This document shows positions 7,535-32,064 of a stretch of DNA of 64,000 nt, piece after piece (positions within the stretch are counted from its first letter, which is position 1; every line of letters starts with the position of its first letter). This DNA is from Syncephalis fuscata. Lineage: Eukaryota; Zoopagomycota; Zoopagomycetes; Zoopagales; Piptocephalidaceae. The DNA lies in assembly GCA_025786725.1 (NCBI GenBank), contig JAHLTZ010000006.1:1-64000 (forward strand). The letters run 5' to 3'. The notes beneath the pieces are model-generated. The model had not been told where the DNA came from and did no database searches. It saw nothing but the letters and a program-made list of their open reading frames with translations. A program made the translations under genes and the position numbers.

Positions 7535-8760
7535 ATGACCACAATGTTCGGATTGAGCGCTGCTCATATGTCAAAACAGTATCTTAGTTTATTGAGGACT
7601 GTAAAGAATAATAGTAGACCACTAGTAGCCAATGTGAGTGTTGCTTGGTATTCACAAAAAAGATCATTTCCACCGGTAGCGGACGTGCCAGAGGAAGATT
7701 CAAGTATACACAGCCCGTAAAAAGGAGATTGAGCGCTGTGGAAAAACAGCGTCTTCAGGGATTGTCTGGTTGGAAGCTAAGATTAGAAGAGGAGAAGATG
7801 CGATCGTTTGGTCCTTGGCGTCCAGAGAAAAGAGTGGCTCGATCAACAATGGAACAAATGCGTATGTTGCATAAAGAGGTAGATACAAAAGTTATAACAT
7901 TATAAATAATGTAGTAAATAAGTTAAATACTAATAGTATATTTATTAATAGTTTCCTGATAAATACGATGTTAAAGCTCTTTCAGCACAATATAATATTT
8001 CATTTGAGGCTGTACGTCGTATTTTACATTCAAGTTTTGAACCAACACCCGAGATTGCAGAAAGACAGGAGAAAAGACGGCAGGAACAGCGAGATACATA
8101 TGTTACTGATTTAATGAATAAGCGCCGTGAAGGAGAGCGCGAGAAACGATATCAAACATCATCAGACTCGCAAAGTACAGATAGATACTCGAGAGACAAT
8201 GATAGATATTCGAGAGGCAATGATAAATACTCAAGAGATAATGATAAATATCGAGAGACAATGATAGATATTGAGAGATAATGAAAATACTCAAGAGATA
8301 ATGATAGATACTCGAGAGACAATGATAGATACTCGAGAGATAATGATAGATATTCGAGAGATAATAATGGCAACAATCGGTATGATTCGAGGTAAGTTAG
8401 AACAAATATATTAAATGTAAGTAATGGTTTATATATTAATGGTTTATCTGTGGTTGTAATAATAGATCAACACCACGGCGTCAAGGCAAACTTTCAGAGC
8501 TTGATATGATAATGGAAAAAGAGTCGATTAAAATACATCCAGCATTTACCAACCGATTTTTGGAAATTCCATTGTACAAATCAGTTCAACGTGATCTATT
8601 AAATGCTGGTGAACAGAAGTGGCAACAAAAGGTCCGTACAAGCCGTGCTAAACGGTTTGCCGAAACACTGGGTATTACCAAAGATCATATCAATGACGTA
8701 CGTTTACTGTATAAAACGAATCAAGAACAACTGAAGCAATCCAACACTAAGAAAATATAA
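7535..8760 (+). CDS. Rrg9/neugrin-family mitochondrial protein, frame broken in a repeat
   Basis: Exons are 7535-7633, 7714-7878 and 7952-8376ish, then a last exon from about 8465. The N-terminus is Ser/Arg/Lys-rich like a mitochondrial leader. The core reads GLSGWKLRLEEEKMRSFGPW, then MEQMRMLHKEFPDKYDVKAL and FEAVRRILHSSFEPTPE, which is the pattern of the Rrg9/neugrin family, needed for mitochondrial genome maintenance and respiration. After it comes a 7-residue repeat (DRYSRDN type, 8180-8365) in which three adjacent units each lack one base. The frame therefore meets TAA TGA at 8279-8284, then returns in frame and continues to 8760 (ending KQSNTKKI). Either the protein stops early or the sequence has errors. 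The product name is inferred from the core motif only. Confidence 0.6.
8180..8365 (+). repeat. 21-bp coding minisatellite, 9 units
   Basis: Nine head-to-tail units of the type GATAGATACTCGAGAGACAAT, encoding D-R/K-Y-S-R-D/G-N. Units 1-3 (8180-8242) and 7-9 (8303-8365) are 21 bp. Units 4, 5 and 6 (8243-8302) are each 20 bp, each lacking a different base. The net loss is 3 bp, so the frame is restored after unit 6. Confidence 0.9.
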
Positions 8761-19979: not shown

Positions 19980-20584
19980 AAGTTGGAGCTACTTCCCTTT
20001 GAGTCCCCATCCTTAAACTAAAGGATAAAAAGATCCATAACTCAAATATTAAACCGTCAATCAGTTTTTACTACTGAGAAGTGGTTTGCTGTAGTGCCAC
20101 ATCAACTTTGATTGAATTAGCCAGAGTCTTAATTAATCTGCACAGTTTTCAATATTTGATATTGGTGTTAATAAATGTTAAATAGTATTCCATGTTACTT
20201 ACAATAAAATATTACATTTAATTATGATGTTGCTGCAACTGTGTTAGTTTGATTTCTTATAATAATAAACGATAAGAAATCAGAAGGTTTTGATTCACCA
20301 CTGGCCATTGTACTGAATATACTGTGCACGTTTTTTGTTGACATTAATATCTCGTTATTTATCCATTCGTTTAAACTATTAATCTATTGCTCCATTTCCT
20401 AGAATATGATTACATTTCACTATTTTAATAATGCCACTTTCTATGACTACACTTGTTTTTAAGAAACATTAACTTTGATTGTATTTTCTATTACACCCAG
20501 TAATTTATTGGCAGTACGCTCTATAACAGCGACTTTTAGTATTAAATAACTTTAATGTTTCTACTGTATCTTGACTCCCTTATT
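19980..20584. other. 3' flank and spacer without genes
   Basis: AT-rich downstream sequence of the KxDL gene. Open frames are short and of low complexity. I see nothing else to report before the inverted repeat arm begins. Confidence 0.5.
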
Positions 20585-21286
20585 TTTTATTGACTCATTT
20601 CACTACCTTTTTCTTATTACTATCTTATTGTCTTGTTTAGTAATATATTATACAGTAATACCAAATGAACAATATAAACAGCATGCGTACTTGAACATTG
20701 ATAAAAAACATTGTTTAGTCCCTGTTTTTATTTTTCTTATTTTACATCAACACCTGTTCAAGTAACCTTAACGGTATGCCGTATTATCTGGTTACAACTG
20801 TCGCCACAATAACTTTTAATAAAGAGACTCAGCCTATCATTATTGCATATGATGGAGGCCATTTGCTTCATCAATCGACAGCAAAGCATCTGCGCCTATC
20901 AAATTGATACCAAGAATGCTTAAGACAATGGTGAACATTAGAAATGCCAGTCGTCCTACCTTTTTGTCACCATAGACGAGTATTTACATTACAGATATGC
21001 CTAAAATGCAACAGTAGAAGATTAGAAAATAGAAAAGACCATTCAGATGCAAGGAAACCACACTGTACGTAGTAACAACAATAACACCTGCGGAACTATA
21101 TAGAATCGCGATCAATGGCTTTTATTAATATTTGATTAATCTCTCTACACATGGCCAACAACAACAGCAATAGCCAGGCTCGTGAAGTTCAAAGTAGTTA
21201 AATGCAAACATCACAGCTATGTTTGCTGTACATAACAGCATGACTTGAATTGGAATGGATTGTGCTTTGGGGACAGATGTGGGAGT
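20585..21286 (-). repeat. Left arm of a ~702-bp inverted repeat
   Basis: Reverse complement of 24105-24807 with only a few differences. The match ends abruptly at both sides (inner edge at GGGAGT, outer edge at TTTTATTGACTC). The arm holds the minus-strand copy of the dead membrane-protein gene described for the right arm. Confidence 0.9.
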
Positions 21287-21825
21287 CAAAGTCCAATTAA
21301 TTGCAATTACACCAGCCTATAATACTTGAACCATCTTCTATTTGCTATTGGATTATTCAAATAAATTTGGCATAGTATTGCATCAACAAACTCCTTCTCA
21401 ATAGTAAAAACTGATTGATGGTTTATCCGAGTTACGGATTTTTTGTTTAAAGTTTGAGGCTAGGGGCTCGAAAAAAGTAGCTCCACTTTGTTAATAAAGC
21501 TTACTAATCAATTCATCTGTCAAGATGCAACCACACACACACACACATACACACGTTTAAATGATATGAAAAGATTATTAATGGTTAAATGCACACAAAG
21601 ACAAGAATAGTCACTAAGATTCGTCGTAACAAAAACAACGCAATAGCGGCAATGGCCGGTGCGAGCAAGAATAGAAAGAAGGATAAGAAATGATAAACTA
21701 GTTTCTTTCAAACAGTGAATTAAACTAGGCACTATCGTTCTTTTTGTTGTTATTAACAACAATAGGAACTATTAAGAAATAAATATGTTTGTTAATAGTG
21801 TTATTGATATATACAGATAATGACG

Positions 21826-23757: not shown

Positions 23758-24104
23758 CTACATAAGAAGACATCTAATATTATCAATAAAACATTTAAGC
23801 TTTTTTCAATACCTGACTACCCTGACCAATTCTTAAATTAATGTAATTACTATTTTTATTGCATAAACGTAGTAAATTACAACAAAAGTAACTTTTATTT
23901 ATATTTTTTTATTAGCTAACATTAATTTTGTTAAAAATGCCAAATAAATTGCTTATTTTACGAGATTAACTATAAAGACTTGAATAATTGACTTGTCAAT
24001 TAATTTGCTTTATATTTAAATTACTATTTGTCATTTGAGCTCATTCTATTACACTTTCCCTTTTCACTTAATATTTAAATTTGAATTTGGTTTTATTGTA
24101 CTTT

Positions 24105-24549
24105 ACTCCCACATCTGTCCCCAAAGCACAATCCATTCCAATTCAAGTCATGCTGTTATGTACAGCAAACATAGCTGTGATGTTTGCATTTAACTACTTT
24201 GAACTTCACGAGCCTGGCTATTGCTGTTGTTGTTGGCCATGTGTAGAGAGATTAATCAAATATTAATAAAAGCCATTGATCGCGATTCTATATAGTTCCG
24301 CAGGTGTTATTGTTGTTACTACGTACAGTGTGGTTTCCTTGCATCTGAATGGTCTTTTCTATTTTCTAATCTTCTACTGTTGCATTTTAGGCATATCTGT
24401 AATGTAAATACTCGTCTATGGTGACAAAAAGGTAGGACGACTGGCATTTCTAATGTTCACCATTGTCTTAAGCATTCTTGGTATCAATTTGATAGGCGCA
24501 GATGCTTTGCTGTCGATTGATGAAGCAAATGGCCTCCATCATATGCAAT
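24105..24549 (+). pseudogene. Decayed multi-spanning membrane protein
   Basis: One frame carries hydrophobic segments: TPTSVPKAQSIPIQVMLLC, NIAVMFAFNYFELHEPGY, then after two stops PLIAILYSSAGVIVVTTYSV and LNGLFYFLIFYCCILGISV, another stop, and RLAFLMFTIVLSILGINLIG to a final TAA. At least three in-frame stops at the same places in both arms show the gene was dead before the arm was duplicated, unless tiny introns are missed. The left arm extends this frame slightly further. I do not recognise the family. Confidence 0.55.
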
Positions 24550-24807
24550 AATGATAGGCTGAGTCTCTTTATTAAAAGTTATTGTGGCGACAGTTGTAAC
24601 CAGATAATACGGCATACCGTTAAGGTTACTTGAACAGGTGTTGATGTAAAATAAGAAAAATAAAAACTAGGGACTAAACAATGTTTTTTATTAATGTTCA
24701 AGTACGCATGCTGTTTATATTGTTCATTTGGTATTACTGTATAATATATTACTAAACAAGACAATAAGATAGTAATAAGAAAAAGGTAGTGAAATGAGTC
24801 AATAAAA
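24105..24807 (+). repeat. Right arm of the ~702-bp inverted repeat
   Basis: Inverted copy of 20585-21286. The segment between the arms (about 2.8 kb) carries VAMP and the Fanzor fragment. Confidence 0.9.
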
Positions 24808-26332
24808 GATGTGAGCCAAAGTAAAAATGACATGATCATGTAAATATCACGCGCTCAATCTGCTATTTTGTTTTATTTTAATATATAGCTATACAACTTT
24901 TATTAATGATCAATAAATAAATAAATATGTTTTTTATTACTGCAATAACGTATAATATTAGCTGTTTACTCCGATAAATAATTAGATTAAGCCTTATAAT
25001 AGTTGGCTTAGTTGATGATCATGTAAGTATATAAAAAGTTACAATGTGATTATGAATATTTATCCATACAACAACCAGAATTATAAAGTATAGCGACGAT
25101 AATAAGTTATTTAACTACTAAAACTCATTAATTTAATTTACAACTCTCTGTTTTCTGTGCGTTATCTCGGTTTAACATTGCTGTTGTTCTGGTCGCATTA
25201 GCAACAGCCAACTTAGCATAGCTATAATGATTTGCTATAGGTTAAACCAGAGGCCTTTGAGCTGATAGTTGTTTTCCATTGGTTTTTGCTTTGGCTTGTT
25301 TTTCTATAGTCCATTTTGCTTGACTTGTCAGAAGTGGTTTCAGAAATATGGGCAGCAGTTAGACCTTGGATGATTATCGATTTATATACGATCTATAGCC
25401 ACACTATACTTGGAATTACTGATAATTGTTTAGTGCTTTCTATTGTGTCTATTCTAGTGTCTGCATATTACATTGTGCATAGTTTAGTTGATGCAATTTA
25501 GTTTACAGCTAAAAACTGATGACAAAAATGACTTGTTGGAATGTTTCATTGCTCAAAATACTGTGATGCATCATGTTACAAACAGTACTTATTGTATAAT
25601 CAGTTTCAGGTGATTTGGATTAACCGCCATTTAAATGATGATAGCTGCACGACATGTAGCATGATATGCCTGGATGTAATGTGTTTGTGAATTCAAAACA
25701 ATGATTACCCCATAGCAATAGGCATAGTGTCGAATGAAATGCATACATGTACCAATCAACACACTTCATCATTTAAAAATTATGGCCAGTCTATACATAG
25801 CAGTAGAGACTTGTATAAAAATGCCATTTTGATATATTAAGCTTGTTTTGTATCAGTGCTGTGTGCTATTCTGTATGCATGCAGATATTGAGGACCGCAT
25901 TGGTAGAAATGGCAGTAAAAACATCATTATCGTTTTCACAAAACCAAACAATATATTTGTTTCCACCAAATAGTTAAATCGTGTAACAAAAAATACAGAC
26001 TAATATGTCTATTTTTAGCGCATATGTACTGGATTATCAGCATTGTTACATCATTCGTGCGAATAACTAACAGATTGAGGTAAAGACCTAGCAGGTCGTG
26101 CATATCGCATATGTACTGCTCATTAGAATTGCCGCGTTATCTGTGTAAATGCCGAACATGCCGAAATCAAGACTGGGCAGGTTGAAACCAAGAATCGGAG
26201 CCTCCTAACATGCCATGAATCTATCGGTACATGTGCACCTCAACCATTGTTTGAATTGTTTTATTGGTTCATATTACACATCAATGGTGTACCTCATACT
26301 ACAGTATACTAGCATCCCAGCATAGCCATAAG
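24808..26332. other. 1.5-kb spacer upstream of the micro-exon gene
   Basis: AT-rich, with short unconvincing frames (one of about 60 residues at 25316-25501, starting from a non-conserved hydrophobic stretch). No recognised domain, RNA gene or transposon end. The last few hundred bases are presumably the promoter of the micro-exon gene. Confidence 0.4.
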
Positions 26333-26340
26333 TATAAATA
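26333..26340 (+). promoter_or_regulatory. TATA box of the micro-exon gene
   Basis: TATAAATA, 145 bp before the ATG at 26478. It is followed by a CT-rich leader (CACACTCTACTTC, CTCCACTCT, CTCTTTTATTTG). A clear TATA box with a pyrimidine-rich leader suggests a strongly or inducibly transcribed gene. Confidence 0.6.
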
Positions 26341-26477
26341 GCCCACAAAATATACACAACCAACTGCAATATCATCATCACACTCTACTTCTTGCTAAAC
26401 ACGCACTACTCTCCACTCTATACCAACCACACTCTACTATCTCTTTTATTTGTTTGTCTCAACAAATCAATATCACC

Positions 26478-28571
26478 ATGAAGTTTTCCATTGCCGTCGT
26501 TTGCACCGTCTTTGTGGCTTTGATAGCCGCTACAGCCATGGTGGATGCTAACCCAGCCTTAGTTCGTCGTGGTAGTATGTTACAATAATAAACATTTCAT
26601 AGTATTATATTTATTAACAGTATTGCTAAATAATAATATTAATAGATCGTAAGTAGCATTGTATATTAATTGACTGTAAATTAATTATATGTTATGCACG
26701 GTGTTTCAACAATTTAATATTAGCAAATTGTAAGTTGTATTGTATATTAATTAATTACTCACTAATCACATGTTATGTATTATGTTTATCAATAAACTAA
26801 TATCAATAGCTCGTAGGTTGTATTGTATATCAATAGAGCATACACTAATTATGTGTCATGTACTGTATTCATCAATAACTAATATTAGTGGATTGTAAGT
26901 TGTATTGTATATTGATTGATTACTCACTAATTGCATGTTATACACCATGTGTACCAATGATTTAATATTAATAGGCAGTAAGTGATATTGTATATTGATG
27001 ACTTATAAATTAATCATATACCATATTGCGTAAATTAACAACTTAATATTATAGAGAGTAAGGTGTATTGTGTATTAACTGACTATGTGCTAATTATATG
27101 CCATGGATAATGTATATCAACAACTCTATTAATAGATTGTAAGCTATATTGTATATTAATTGATAATTGACTAATCATATATTATTTGCTATGTATATCA
27201 ACAATTTAATATTAATAGGTCGTAAGTAGCATTGCATAGGCAGACTTATAAATTAATTATATACCATGTATTGCGTACATCAATAACTTGATGGAATAGT
27301 TGGTAAGTAACATTATATATTAGTTATACCATTTACCGACTGTACTGATTATTTAACATTAATAGCTGGTAAGTAATATTATATATTAACTGACTATACA
27401 TTAACTATACTATTGATTGATTGTACTAATTGTTTAATATTAATAGGCAGTAAGTGGCATTCCATATTGACTGAACATACATTAACTATACTATTTATTG
27501 ATTTACCGATTATTTAATATTAATAGCTTGTAAGTGATATTGTATATTAACTGAATACATTAACCACGCTATTTATTGATCGTACTAATTGTTTAATATT
27601 AATAGATCGTAAGTAGTATTGTATATTAAATAACTATACATTAACCACACTATTTATTAACTGTACTGATTGTTTAATATTAATAGAATGTAAGTGATAT
27701 TGTATATTAACTGACTATATATTAACGCGCTATTTACTGATGATACCAATTGTTTAATATTAATAGATCGTAAGTAGTATTGTATATTAAGGACTGTATT
27801 GCTTATGTTATTTATTGCTTTTACTGACTATTTAACATTAATAGCTGGTAAGTAATATTGTATATTAACTGACTATATATTAACCACACTATTTACTAAC
27901 TGTACTGATTGTTTAATATTAATAGAATGTAAGTGATATTGTATATTAATTGACTATACATTAATTATGATACTTACTGATTGTACCAATGCTTATTATT
28001 AATAGCTCGTAAGTAGTATTGTATATTAACTGACTATACATTAATCACGTTGTTTACTAATGGTATTACTTGTTTAATATCAATAGGGTGTAAGTAGTAT
28101 TGTATATTAGTTGACAATGCATTAACCACGCTATTTACTGATTGTATCAATTATTTAATATTAATAGGCAGTAAGTGATATTTCATATTAATTGACTATA
28201 AAATATGCTATTTATTGATGATATTAATGATTTAATATTAATAGACAGTAAGTTTTATCGTATATTAACTGAGTGTACACTAAGTATATACCATGTGCTG
28301 TATCCATCATCAAATCGACATTAGAGTATTGTAAGTTGTGTTGTATATTAATTGATTACTTATTAAGCACATACTATACACCATGTGTACCAACAACTTG
28401 ATATTAATAGGCAGTAAGTAGCATTGTATATTAATTGATTACTCCCTAACCACATGCTATACACCATGTGTACCAACAACTTAATACTAATAGAAAGTAA
28501 GTAATGTTATATTACTAACTTGTAAATTAATTATATGGCATATGATATCTTTATTTGTAAATACAGAATAA
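26478..28571 (+). CDS. Secreted Cys-rich peptide gene made of 24 micro-exons
   Basis: Exon 1 (26478-26574) encodes a signal peptide (MKFSIAVVCTVFVALIAATA) and a short propeptide ending in Arg-Arg, a Kex2-type cleavage site. It ends in phase 1 at GTATGT (a GTAGTA donor 3 nt earlier keeps the same phase). Then come 24 micro-exons, each between a TAG acceptor and a GTAAGT-like donor. Starts: 26646, 26724*, 26810, 26889*, 26975, 27055, 27136, 27219, 27300, 27366, 27447, 27527, 27606, 27687, 27767, 27845, 27926, 28006, 28087, 28168, 28245, 28325*, 28411, 28494. All are 3 nt, except those marked * which are 6 nt. The last exon starts at 28567 and closes the frame with TAA (28569-28571). The spliced frame has about 60 residues. 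The mature part is about 29, with four Cys spaced C-x2-C-x11-C-x3-C and a basic C-terminus. All introns are 63-80 nt. The function is unknown. An unrelated read in phase 0 is also open, but exon 1 gives no donor for it. Confidence 0.8.
26575..28566 (+). repeat. Tandem array of 25 introns, mostly related
   Basis: Units of about 66-86 bp follow one plan: TAG, 3 or 6 variable nt, GTAAGTAGTATTGTATATTA, a middle resembling ACTGACTATACATTAACCAC, then TATTTACTGATTGTACTAAT and TGTTTAATATTAATAG. The central units (about 27360-28240) are the most alike. The first few and last few have drifted and form a second sub-type (ATTGATTACTCACTAA, CACCATGTGTACCAACAA). Unlike the intron bodies, the variable triplets show no fixed sequence. 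Confidence 0.9.
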
Positions 28572-29596
28572 TCGATGGTTTCAAGACATCAGCATTGGTA
28601 GTGCAATCAAACCACTATTCCAATACGCTTTAGGTATATATTCGGTGAAATGCAAGACCATTTGACAACTACGCCGTCCAGTCTATTTATATATCAAGTT
28701 TTGGCCAATGCTCCGGTTTATCCAGTCTTTAATCAATGGAATCGTTATTATATTATCAATTTCGCACTTAATTGGATCTATCCAGCTGTGCAAACTTGTA
28801 GTAATAAATAAATGGTTTCATTTTAGTTATGCTTTATTAGGCTATTATAGCTATATCTACGTTTATTTGCACCTAACAATCAGTATCGACCAACTAAATA
28901 AAAAATACTAGCATCAAATTTGTAGTAGTTTATTGATAAGAACAAAGCATTACCTGGGTTGGGATATAGCATAATAAACTAATAATGTTTCATAATTCCA
29001 TTCATGTAAATAAAACAAATAGCAATAGAATATTTCAATAATTAATTTTGAAATGGTTTCTACCAAAGTCTCAATAAGACTTGTATTTTCGTTAGTAACA
29101 CCTAATCGAATAGGCCCATATAACCTATAACTCAAGGTCAATGTTACAAGCACAAGCCTGACAGGCCTATTATAGTCAATATGTGTCACTTACTGATACA
29201 AATAATTGGTGTGACGATAATCAATTGATAAATTATTATCGCAACCAACCAATATAAATAAACCACTATTTATATTGATTGGACATTATCTTTTATTTGA
29301 CTTCTTTTTATTGATACGTACATTTGCCATATTAGTTCCAATTACATGTAGAATTCTGGCGCTTGCAGGCGAGCACAGAAAGTGCCAGTCCTCATCGCAA
29401 TCTTACTCTATTATTCTGTTTTAGAATTGCTATAAAATAAAATGATAAAATAGAAAATGCTATGAGATCGGCATTTGTTGTGCCCACCCGGGAGCGCCAC
29501 AATATTACCTGGTGCTGGTATTAAGATGATAAATACCAAGTATCACTTAAAGGAGATCGGATAAAAGATCGTGTTTATTAGATACGTTATAACAGT
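28572..29596. other. 3' flank of the micro-exon gene and spacer
   Basis: Includes a 67-codon ATG frame at 28708-28911 (MLRFIQSLINGIVIILSISH and another hydrophobic stretch) that may be chance. 29340-29560 is less AT-rich and contains short hairpins but matches no RNA class I know. No other feature. Confidence 0.35.
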
Positions 29597-30003
29597 TTGC
29601 ATACAAAGTGGCTGATATTACAAGTTAGCACAGGATTATTCTGTTACTTGTCTATTATGCTTAATGTTTTAGAATCAGAAAGTATCACTATCGACACCTA
29701 CAAGTGCAGTATAGTTGTTAATCAAGTATCTAGTCCATTCATCGATATAATTCCTGTTGCAGAATGTAAGTGTTTTTATTATTAATAATAAAGAAACCAG
29801 TGTTTACATATTTCTATTTAGAACCAACTACTTTAATGGTGCTGGCCCATCAATGTTGCGATATACAAACTGTGTTTTTTGGTTAAACATAGTATTTCAA
29901 ACAAAAAAGAATCAGCATTACTCGAGAACTTTACAGTTAAATGGCAACAAGTTTTACTATTATAAACCTTGGCGAACATTAAACCGATATATAATATATT
30001 AAT
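29597..30003 (+). other. Possible small two-exon gene, unidentified
   Basis: A hydrophobic frame at about 29600-29765 (WLILQVSTGLFCYLSIMLNV) has a GTAAGT donor after it, and a second open stretch after a TAG acceptor (29823-30002: NYFNGAGPSMLRYTNCVFWL). Joining them at the obvious splice sites makes a stop codon at the junction, so the model is not settled. Weak evidence. Confidence 0.2.
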
Positions 30004-30219
30004 GTTATAATAAAGTTTTAAACATAATATCTATATTTTATTAAATGTTGTTATATACAATGATTTCTGTACAACTTGGTAACATGTTTGGTAAACCAGC
30101 TTGATTTGCCTATAATCATTATTGTTTGCTTTTTGTTTATAAAAACTATTAGTTTTGTAATAGCAAACCACCATTTTTATTTACGATTCTATTACCGACT
30201 ATTGTCGTTCCATTTTATC

Positions 30220-32064
30220 ATGAAGAAGGTCGTGTCGAATCTTGGACCAATACTTGATTTGTGCAAACGCCGTGGCTTTCTTCTACCTTCCTATGGATTG
30301 TATAATGGCCTTCGCGGTGCACTCGACTACGGGCCTTTAGGCGTTGAATTAAAACGCGCCATTTATCACGAATGGTGGCGGGCCATTGTTGATAGCCGTG
30401 ACGACGTCCACGGTGTCGATACGCCTATTATAACGCCTAGAGAAGTGCTACGTGCTTCGGGTCATGAGGCAGGCTTTAGCGATCCCTTAGTGGATTGCCG
30501 TCTTACACGCGAGCGTTTTCGTGCCGATAAAGCACCTCCACTACGCGTTGAAGAAATCGAGACAATAGACAGTGTGAGCAAAGAGAAGCGACTCGAATGG
30601 CGTATACCTATTTACGCGCCAGATAAACTAAAAGCTCGGACCTGGCTTCAGTTAATTGAAGAGAAACTAGCCCCAAATGCCCGAGTAACGCGTGATAATC
30701 GATCTATTTATCTTTATTTAAATGAAAAGCCAACGGCACAAGCTATAGAGATTGTCAAGGCAGGTAAATCAGGCATAAAAGATACGCCACACAGTGAAGA
30801 TGAACACTCGTCGGTAGTATCGCATCAACAGCAAGATTTATACATGTTACAATTGCAATCAAAAACAGATTCAACTACATCAATTGCTTTTTCATTTGCC
30901 GGTTATGCTGAACCTAGTTCAAACTCACCGTTTCTTACGGAGCCACGCGCCTTTAATTTAATGTTCCAAACTCATATTGGTGTAGGAGAAGTGGAACAAG
31001 ACGGACATGGCACAGCAAATGATAGTGATACTACTGGATCCCTTGTTTATTTAAGACCAGAGACAGCTCAAGGCATATTTTCAAATTTCCCTTTATTACA
31101 TCGAGCAGCTGGTCAGCCAATGCTACCCTTCGGTATTGCCCAGTATGGCAAATCATTTAGAAACGAAATACGTACGGAGAAATCAGCTTTTCGTACTTGT
31201 GAATTCGAGCAATTAGAACTCGAATATTTTGTAGCCCCCACAACTGAAATGGCCGATAGTTGGCTTAACCGCTGGAAAGAATGGCGTCTGGCTTGGTGGC
31301 GGGCCTATGCCGTTAATGAAGGGCAAATGCCATCATCTGTAGCCAAAGTGGATAGTGAGCATAAAGAACATACAACAGCCACGAGTAATGTATTTAGATT
31401 ACGTAGTCACACCACCGATGAATTGGCTCATTATGCCAAATCATGCTACGATATTGAATATCAATTCCCTTGGGGATGGGGCGAAGTGGAAGGTGTAGCC
31501 AATCGAGGTGATCATGATTTACGACAACACAGTGAAGCAATTCGTAGTCTGGCCGGACTCGAAGTACCTTATGGCATTAACCAGGATGGTAAACCATTTA
31601 AAGGTGTTCCATGGGTCATTGAATCATCAGCTGGATTAAATCGCGCCTGTTTAGTTTATTTACTTGATGCTTACGCAGTGGAATCTAGTCCAGATCAATC
31701 AGCCGCCGCCACCCGTACTTATCTACGTTTACATCCACGTATTGCCCCCGTACAAGCGGCAGTAACACCTCTACAGCGTAATGATGCGCTATTAGGAGTG
31801 GCACGCCAAGTATCGGGGCAATTGCGTCGATTAGGTATTCGTACTGTATTGGATACCACATCTGCCTCTATCGGACGCCGTTACGCTCGCCAAGATGAGG
31901 CAGGCACTCCTTGGTGTGTTACAGTTGATTTCGAAACTGATGGACAAATTACGCTACGTGAACGCGATTCAATGCAACAAATACGTGTACCCATCGATCA
32001 AATAGGTCAACTGATACGATTTCGATTGGATAATAGTGGATTTGTACCACCCACTGACATATAA
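30220..32064 (+). CDS. Glycyl-tRNA synthetase, bacterial dimeric type, intronless
   Basis: Charges tRNA-Gly. A single 614-residue frame without introns. Class II motif 1 region reads RGALDYGPLGVELKRAIYHE. Further blocks are ASGHEAGFSDPLVDC, YLRPETAQGIFSNF, FGIAQYGKSFRNEI (motif 2), TCEFEQLELEYFV, WGWGEVEGVANRGDHDL and WVIESSAGLNRACL (motif 3). The anticodon-binding domain has LHPRIAPVQAAVTPL and RRYARQDEAGTPWCVTVDF. This is the alpha2 type as found in bacteria such as actinobacteria and Bacteroidetes, not the usual fungal Grs1 sequence. The Cys pair that binds zinc after DPLVDC is missing. No clear mitochondrial leader. ATG 30220 is the first in-frame ATG. The absence of introns in an intron-rich genome suggests bacterial origin or retroposition. 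Confidence 0.88.
   Translation: MKKVVSNLGPILDLCKRRGFLLPSYGLYNGLRGALDYGPLGVELKRAIYHEWWRAIVDSRDDVHGVDTPIITPREVLRASGHEAGFSDPLVDCRLTRERFRADKAPPLRVEEIETIDSVSKEKRLEWRIPIYAPDKLKARTWLQLIEEKLAPNARVTRDNRSIYLYLNEKPTAQAIEIVKAGKSGIKDTPHSEDEHSSVVSHQQQDLYMLQLQSKTDSTTSIAFSFAGYAEPSSNSPFLTEPRAFNLMFQTHIGVGEVEQDGHGTANDSDTTGSLVYLRPETAQGIFSNFPLLHRAAGQPMLPFGIAQYGKSFRNEIRTEKSAFRTCEFEQLELEYFVAPTTEMADSWLNRWKEWRLAWWRAYAVNEGQMPSSVAKVDSEHKEHTTATSNVFRLRSHTTDELAHYAKSCYDIEYQFPWGWGEVEGVANRGDHDLRQHSEAIRSLAGLEVPYGINQDGKPFKGVPWVIESSAGLNRACLVYLLDAYAVESSPDQSAAATRTYLRLHPRIAPVQAAVTPLQRNDALLGVARQVSGQLRRLGIRTVLDTTSASIGRRYARQDEAGTPWCVTVDFETDGQITLRERDSMQQIRVPIDQIGQLIRFRLDNSGFVPPTDI

Follow-up and report, generated by a model that had tools for sequence, protein, structure and literature searches.

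The closest described counterparts of the gene family reported here are the micro-exon genes (MEGs) of Schistosoma, which encode variable secreted proteins of a parasite, as is predicted for the fungal family, and combine a signal peptide with many tiny exons, most of them multiples of three in length (excerpts from PMC10526429). Their exons are given as 3-81 bp in the abstract of that source and as 6-81 bp, most of 15 bp, in its results, with introns of 100 to almost 5000 bp. A second parallel is offered by the bicycle effector genes of aphids, in which, according to excerpts from PMC9168663, internal exons are numerous, unusually small and nearly always in one phase, and which evolve rapidly, while the bicycle product is described in excerpts from PMC13041983 as having a saposin-like fold. 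Moreover, the 1-nt exon of Arabidopsis APC11 resembles the micro-exons described below in lying under the size thought to be definable, and the ratchet points of recursive splicing resemble them in that an acceptor adjoins a donor used after the first ligation.

Our locus lies in a window of 64,000 nucleotides, the whole stretch of Syncephalis fuscata DNA that was analysed, and is very probably a functional gene of a large family encoding small secreted cysteine-rich peptides, whose spliceosomal splicing we infer from the genomic sequence. All parts of the gene and its flanks listed next are on the forward strand. The 5' flank (24220-26477) is common in blocks to other family loci and holds the 5' UTR; when 17 family loci were compared with the window by blastn, upstream blocks had ~74-88% identity, some loci matching over part of the stretch only, and a TATA-like box at ~26333 and the 5' UTR were assigned by eye. 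Exon 1 (26478-26574) comprises the ATG, a putative signal peptide and Arg-Arg, and ends in phase 1 before GTATGT, as read from the sequence and by a parser. The initial annotation placed 24 micro-exons behind it, 21 of 3 nt and three of 6 nt, and all were recovered with these sizes and positions by the parser, which had no frame rule and allowed exons of 1-40 nt, while a strict pattern found 23 of the 24, the exception being the third, which has a GTAGGT donor. In order, they are ATC (26646-26648), CAAATT (26724-26729), CTC (26810-26812), TGGATT (26889-26894), GCA (26975-26977), AGA (27055-27057), ATT (27136-27138), GTC (27219-27221), TTG (27300-27302), CTG (27366-27368), GCA (27447-27449), CTT (27527-27529), ATC (27606-27608), AAT (27687-27689), ATC (27767-27769), CTG (27845-27847), AAT (27926-27928), CTC (28006-28008), GGT (28087-28089), GCA (28168-28170), ACA (28245-28247), AGTATT (28325-28330), GCA (28411-28413) and AAA (28494-28496). 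The last exon (28567-28825) adds two coding bases and the TAA (28569-28571) and continues into a family-conserved 3' UTR, its limit at 28825 being the point where homology to one locus stops and not the transcript end. One parsed intron measures 63 nt and the rest 65-100 nt (71 for the first, 70 for the last). The predicted spliced product, MKFSIAVVCTVFVALIAATAMVDANPALVRR-GNPNSLDCKNCLAGTYQYPESRCNKYCKK-stop, has 60 residues and agrees with the C-x2-C-x11-C-x3-C arrangement after Arg-Arg and the stop that had been proposed. A scan for clustered sites found no second array within the window; a glycyl-tRNA synthetase adjoining the gene has 72% identity to a Syncephalis plumigaleata protein.

Judged by similarity, the window gene is a member of a large family of arrays in the S. 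fuscata genome, where it has 97 matching pieces and where the exon-1 tail occurs 138 times with at most one mismatch (reversed control: 8). Among 92 exact exon-1 tails listed, 70 are also among the 71 listed tails with a GTATGTT donor, and some of the remaining 22 are arrays with another donor. Between the CGT codon and each of the 71 listed donors there are 1 or 4 nt, although 1-7 nt were allowed, and all 71 are therefore in phase 1. We analysed 40 array loci, including that of the window, taken from similarity matches to the window gene, and 10 further loci hand-picked from the exon-1-tail list, of which three proved to be arrays (L055 being truncated where its contig stops) and seven intronless. 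The sample comes from one genome and was first chosen by similarity; its loci are paralogues, so locus counts are not independent. Public annotation seems to miss the array family, and the annotated S. fuscata proteins P0127 and P0129 appear by eye to run into an array intron (RKLYC stretch). Three others (P0126, P0130 and P0131) carry much the same signal peptide before quite different mature proteins, so that different genes may have the signal exon in common as a module. Several repeats were also observed. The left end of the family block in the window (24216-24747, forward strand) has an inverted relative at 20567-21298 (reverse strand), and relatives of this block end flank other family loci on one or both sides, L018 having two in the same orientation; a mobile or segmental unit is possible. 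By eye, two pairs of arrays look alike in triplets and spacing, one direct and ~19 kb apart (C2:225815-228574 and C2:245207-247823), the other inverted and ~55 kb apart (C1:475893-478076 and C1:531562-533989). A 21-bp tandem repeat with nine copies and 85% matches occupies window positions 8180-8365.

The parser used dynamic programming with donor and acceptor weight matrices that were first seeded from sites spaced 3 or 6 nt apart and then re-estimated from parsed units, with a small penalty per exon base and a preference for introns of 55-100 nt; because it picks exons by splice-site score and was seeded on this spacing, some of the splice-site conservation stems from its design. Of the 40 loci, 32 were parsed in full, the sequence pieces of the remaining eight missing a start or an end; in these 32, 952 of 957 internal exons were 3 or 6 nt long (904 of 3 nt, 48 of 6 nt, three of 2 nt, and one each of 4 and 7 nt, for which in-frame alternatives exist at adjacent sites). 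With matrices frozen from these loci, all 45 exons of two further complete arrays had 3 or 6 nt (43 and 2, respectively), as had 232 of 235 in nine incomplete arrays (the eight and L055; 223 of 3 nt, nine of 6 nt and three of 2 nt), where calls lacking a neighbouring intron of 55-100 nt were discarded. In total, 1229 of 1237 internal exons across 43 parsed arrays have 3 or 6 nt, so that, as in micro-exon genes, most coding exons are tiny and divisible by three. Array genes contain 13-42 phase-1 micro-exons of one or two codons, separated by introns that peak at 78 nt and mostly span 72-80 nt, a usual size for fungi. Across the family, GTAAGT donors are near-invariant and acceptors are TTTAATATTAATAG-like; donor frequencies in parsed units are 100% G, 98% T, 99% A, 94% A, 98% G and 94% T, with T at -3 in 97%. 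GT-AG ends, a GTAAGT-like donor and an AG acceptor match U2-type introns, a match partly due to the way units were parsed. Eighteen introns are longer (429-902 nt, in the 14 loci L021, L027, L029, L030, L033-L037, L039, L040 and L043-L045), and among those in the alignment listed most carry a ~400-bp insert with shared ends, L027 and L036 having a different, larger one. The ~400-bp insert looked tRNA-like by eye, but ARAGORN detected no tRNA in the four loci scanned, and two loci searched with Rfam gave no match.

Across the genome, 2716 copies of TAATAG-N3-GTAAGT were counted, the reversed control having five, while other spacings of the same motifs gave 26 against 36 (N2), 14 against 20 (N4) and 11 against 16 (N5). 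At the N6 spacing, TAATAG yielded 15 against 7 and TATTAG 84 against 12. In 34 parsed genes, 671 of the 1002 micro-exons fit the strict pattern, and scaling the 2716 strict sites by this share gives a rough estimate of ~4000 micro-exons in the whole genome. The arrays are repetitive, and Tandem Repeats Finder reports repeats of about 81-83 bp whose adjacent introns are slightly more alike (0.685 one unit apart, 0.637 at twelve), as expected of a minisatellite in which TAG-NNN-GTAAGT belongs to the repeat unit by chance, with no coding role. Yet a neutral repeat would not hold the N3 spacing at this level with N2 and N4 at that of the control, nor would it focus change in the NNN or yield the order-dependent cysteine frameworks described below, and we give such a minisatellite practically no credence.

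The reading frame was evaluated in 27 of the 32 loci, those with multiples of three only (801 exons, 840 codons), using 1000 within-gene shuffles of exon order. Phase 1 contains two stops (L034 and L046) where 51.6 (37-70) were expected, and 144 cysteines against 68.2 in the shuffles (maximum 88). In phase 2 there are 87 stops, and none of the 27 genes is free of them. Phase 0, which is independent of exon order, has seven stops and three cysteines; as micro-exons rarely begin with T, few stops can arise there, and thus stop counts separate phase 1 from phase 2 and from the shuffles, not from phase 0. An in-frame stop follows 0-5 codons into the last exon in all 27 loci tested. Likewise, the nine incomplete arrays have 5, 0 and 16 stops and 3, 35 and 14 cysteines in phases 0, 1 and 2, respectively. 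Predicted mature peptides are usually 28-46 residues long with 4-8 cysteines, typically arranged as C-x2-C-x3-C-x8-14-C-x3-4-C-x3-C with hypervariable residues between them. Using cysteine patterns composed after the products were known and applied equally to 500 shuffles, 26 of 34 products have a four-cysteine framework (shuffles: mean 0.05, maximum 2) and 15 of 34 a six-cysteine framework (shuffle maximum 1); six have neither (L019, L025, the short L034, L035, L046 and L048). A hydrophobic N-terminus was recognised by eye in 35 of the 40 loci, those with a start found. Exon 1 might instead be joined straight to the last exon, the array forming one long, non-coding intron and the product ending just after Arg-Arg. 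Such a 2 kb intron is possible, and the frame would survive it as well, nearly every micro-exon having a length divisible by three. On the other hand, stop depletion and cysteine enrichment coincide in the exon-1 phase only with the natural exon order, a cysteine-rich peptide stands at the same place in intronless paralogues, and splice sites of the units are more conserved than intron bodies, partly by construction of the parser. A single long intron is thus very improbable.

Seven loci (L049-L054 and L056) combine the same signal exon with a contiguous, intronless peptide. Five of them (L049, L050, L052, L053 and L054) end at the stop region common to the arrays, whereas L051 continues beyond it; an in-frame stop occurs in L054, and the signal part of L056 has a defective frame. 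Among seven intronless peptides (L049-L053, P0121 and P0124, thus leaving aside L054 and L056), all fit the four-cysteine and five the six-cysteine pattern. In nucleotide alignments to 33 of the 34 predicted spliced arrays, natural exon order scored above the mean of shuffled orders for 27 (L049), 25 (L050), 27 (L051), 28 (L052), 28 (L053), 31 (L054) and 30 (L056) of the 33, and L054 is nearly alike to predicted spliced L030 over several predicted junctions. The frame-free parses of 43 arrays, the stop and cysteine shuffles and these intronless paralogues together uphold the initial reading of a secreted peptide predicted to be assembled from one- and two-codon exons. Intronless copies could be the only expressed members, with the arrays a silent archive or decaying copies, considering that seven of the ten hand-picked loci are intronless and that L052 is publicly annotated as read here (P0123). 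Frame, stop and splice sites are intact in most arrays, though, and some intronless copies are themselves irregular (the L054 stop, the L056 frame defect, the read-past of L051), which leaves a silent archive improbable, if less so than one long intron.

How the two gene forms are related can be approached from their flanks. Homology blocks shared with array loci extend more than 1 kb upstream of six of the seven intronless loci, and most of these are therefore not plain retrocopies. The homology of L056, in turn, is limited to a stretch that starts ~100 nt ahead of the ATG and stops at a short run of A behind a polyadenylation-like signal, as in a processed retrocopy, and both ends of L052 resemble those of L056 by eye, though L052 also has a homologous block further upstream; from these ends we conclude that some message of the family was probably reverse-transcribed. 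The opposite order, in which the intronless form is ancestral and introns were gained to form the arrays, instead of spliced transcripts having given rise to the intronless copies, draws on the array-like upstream flanks of the six loci. Against it stand the retrocopy-like extent of L056 and the uniform phase, intron sequence and period of the arrays, which suit unit duplication better than ~30 separate gains, and we consider ancestry of the intronless form rather unlikely.

If the arrays are spliced, as the preferred reading holds, the introns would be of the U2 type, their strong and uniform splice sites allowing recognition by intron definition. They would be removed one after another, each 5' neighbour being first joined to the growing upstream exon, because an acceptor and a donor only 3 nt apart presumably cannot both be occupied. 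Once a micro-exon had been joined upstream, the next GTAAGT would become usable, leaving one codon per step. A comparable sequential model has been proposed for the 1-nt Arabidopsis exon (excerpts from PMC4674806). RNA folding that brings intron ends together was rejected as an aid (mean z of +0.17 against dinucleotide shuffles, 200 introns); no consensus RNA structure was found in 128 aligned introns, and no known RNA element in window positions 24000-30300, L021 and L043 (Rfam, up to E 0.1). A variation compatible with serial splicing is that micro-exons are included but variably skipped, which would give many peptides per gene differing by codons, as proposed for schistosome MEGs. Loss of any 3- or 6-nt unit preserves the frame, and six loci (L015, L019, L020, L031, L042 and L032) each contain one 2-nt unit that is best omitted, so skipping of a unit seems tolerated. 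Its omission opens a downstream cysteine-rich frame, clearly in L015, L019, L020, L031 and L042 and most weakly in L032 (one cysteine, then a stop), whereas inclusion leaves one cysteine or none downstream in the three loci counted. Splice sites are nearly uniform and strong, however, and random omission would disrupt the cysteine spacing, which makes variable skipping a possibility that we do not favour.

In their divergence, the arrays reverse the usual rule, with introns conserved and exons hypervariable. Exons differ more than introns in all 25 closest pairs (factor ~1.8 to 4.4) and in 59 of 60 pairs of a wider set. Where introns differ by 0.040, 0.109, 0.185 and 0.215, exons differ by ~0.12, 0.38, 0.54 and 0.58, the signal exon by 0.025, 0.066, 0.113 and 0.127, and splice-site bases least, by 0.007, 0.011, 0.035 and 0.040; distant pairs may align non-corresponding units, and splice-site conservation is partly parser-made. 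The three codon positions of micro-exons change alike, and amino-acid-level positive selection finds little support as the sole cause of exon divergence, as position 3 changes equally fast. Nor is change in general strictly confined to exons, since changed triplets have more diverged flanks as well (ten pairs). In eleven pairs, once flank difference is matched (2-19 of ~140), the rate of change in exons is 3.0-4.4 times that of the flanks. In L014 and L015, two bases are changed in each of the adjacent micro-exons 25 and 26, with flanks differing at 0/140 and 1/140. With introns that differ by 2.4%, L017 carries 35 units and L022 carries 32, and peptide length is therefore altered by whole codons. 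Tentatively, each gene might be a codon-cassette array with one ~81-bp unit per codon, in which the intron serves as a conserved recombination scaffold and codons can be added, lost, swapped and perhaps skipped singly. Frame and splicing would thereby be kept while each unit varied mainly at its three coding bases, with combinatorial splicing as an option; if true, such an array would serve specifically to produce hypervariable peptides.

The precursor would be secreted and then cut at Arg-Arg by a Kex2-like protease, as the conservation of this motif suggests. Homology is silent on function, because no relative was found in Pfam, the PDB or foreign proteins. A profile of 23 products searched against 5.8 billion proteins gave 12 matches among 168 candidates, all from S. 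fuscata, a restriction that holds for annotated proteins, the search being blind to unannotated arrays in other species. Pfam returned nothing better than E 0.043, each hit by one of the 23 products, and the best match in a PDB profile search was hepatocyte growth factor (E 0.9). The fold model of the intronless P0121 was too poor to use (mean pLDDT 59.9, pTM 0.31). Alpha-hairpinins, helix-turn-helix peptides of the form C-x3-C...C-x3-C whose two C-x3-C motifs are linked by two disulfides, have a cysteine spacing that resembles that of the array peptides; four of the five PDB matches were vicilin-type chains, one named hairpinin, at E 3.6-9, which is not significant. Syncephalis species are parasites of moulds, and hypervariable residues on a cysteine scaffold in a parasite suggest a role directed at host or competitors. 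Its probable targets, proposed independently of homology, belong to the mould under attack or to competing organisms.

Among effector families, the SP7-like effectors of Glomeromycotina, repeat-containing and with one conserved intron before the first repeat (excerpts from PMC11333574), differ by description in gene structure, which speaks against membership. Descent from schistosome MEGs found no backing in the profile search, whose matches all came from S. fuscata. Unlike Schistosoma MEGs, the fungal arrays have internal exons of one or two codons and look-alike introns of ~78 nt, and bicycle genes differ in having about 17 exons on average that are not single codons. The architecture had been put forward as undescribed in fungi, and in the openly licensed PMC literature searched neither one-codon exons in series nor this Syncephalis family turned up. 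APC11 of Arabidopsis has one isolated tiny exon, against 13-42 consecutive ones in the fungal arrays. Ratchet points of recursive splicing lie inside long introns and leave no exon sequence, whereas the array model keeps 3 nt per step. If transcripts confirm this, joining dozens of 3-nt exons in a row is routine for the S. fuscata spliceosome, with some four thousand of them in the genome by rough estimate, and the long-standing question of the lower limit of exon size and the need for exon definition becomes testable on a natural substrate with intronless controls. The arrays appear to be extreme split genes, in which nearly every amino acid of the mature peptide has its own three-letter exon. 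As the passages on MEGs and bicycle genes that we drew on describe no runs of one-codon exons, we call the predicted array gene an extreme micro-exon gene that, within the tests made, has an origin of its own.
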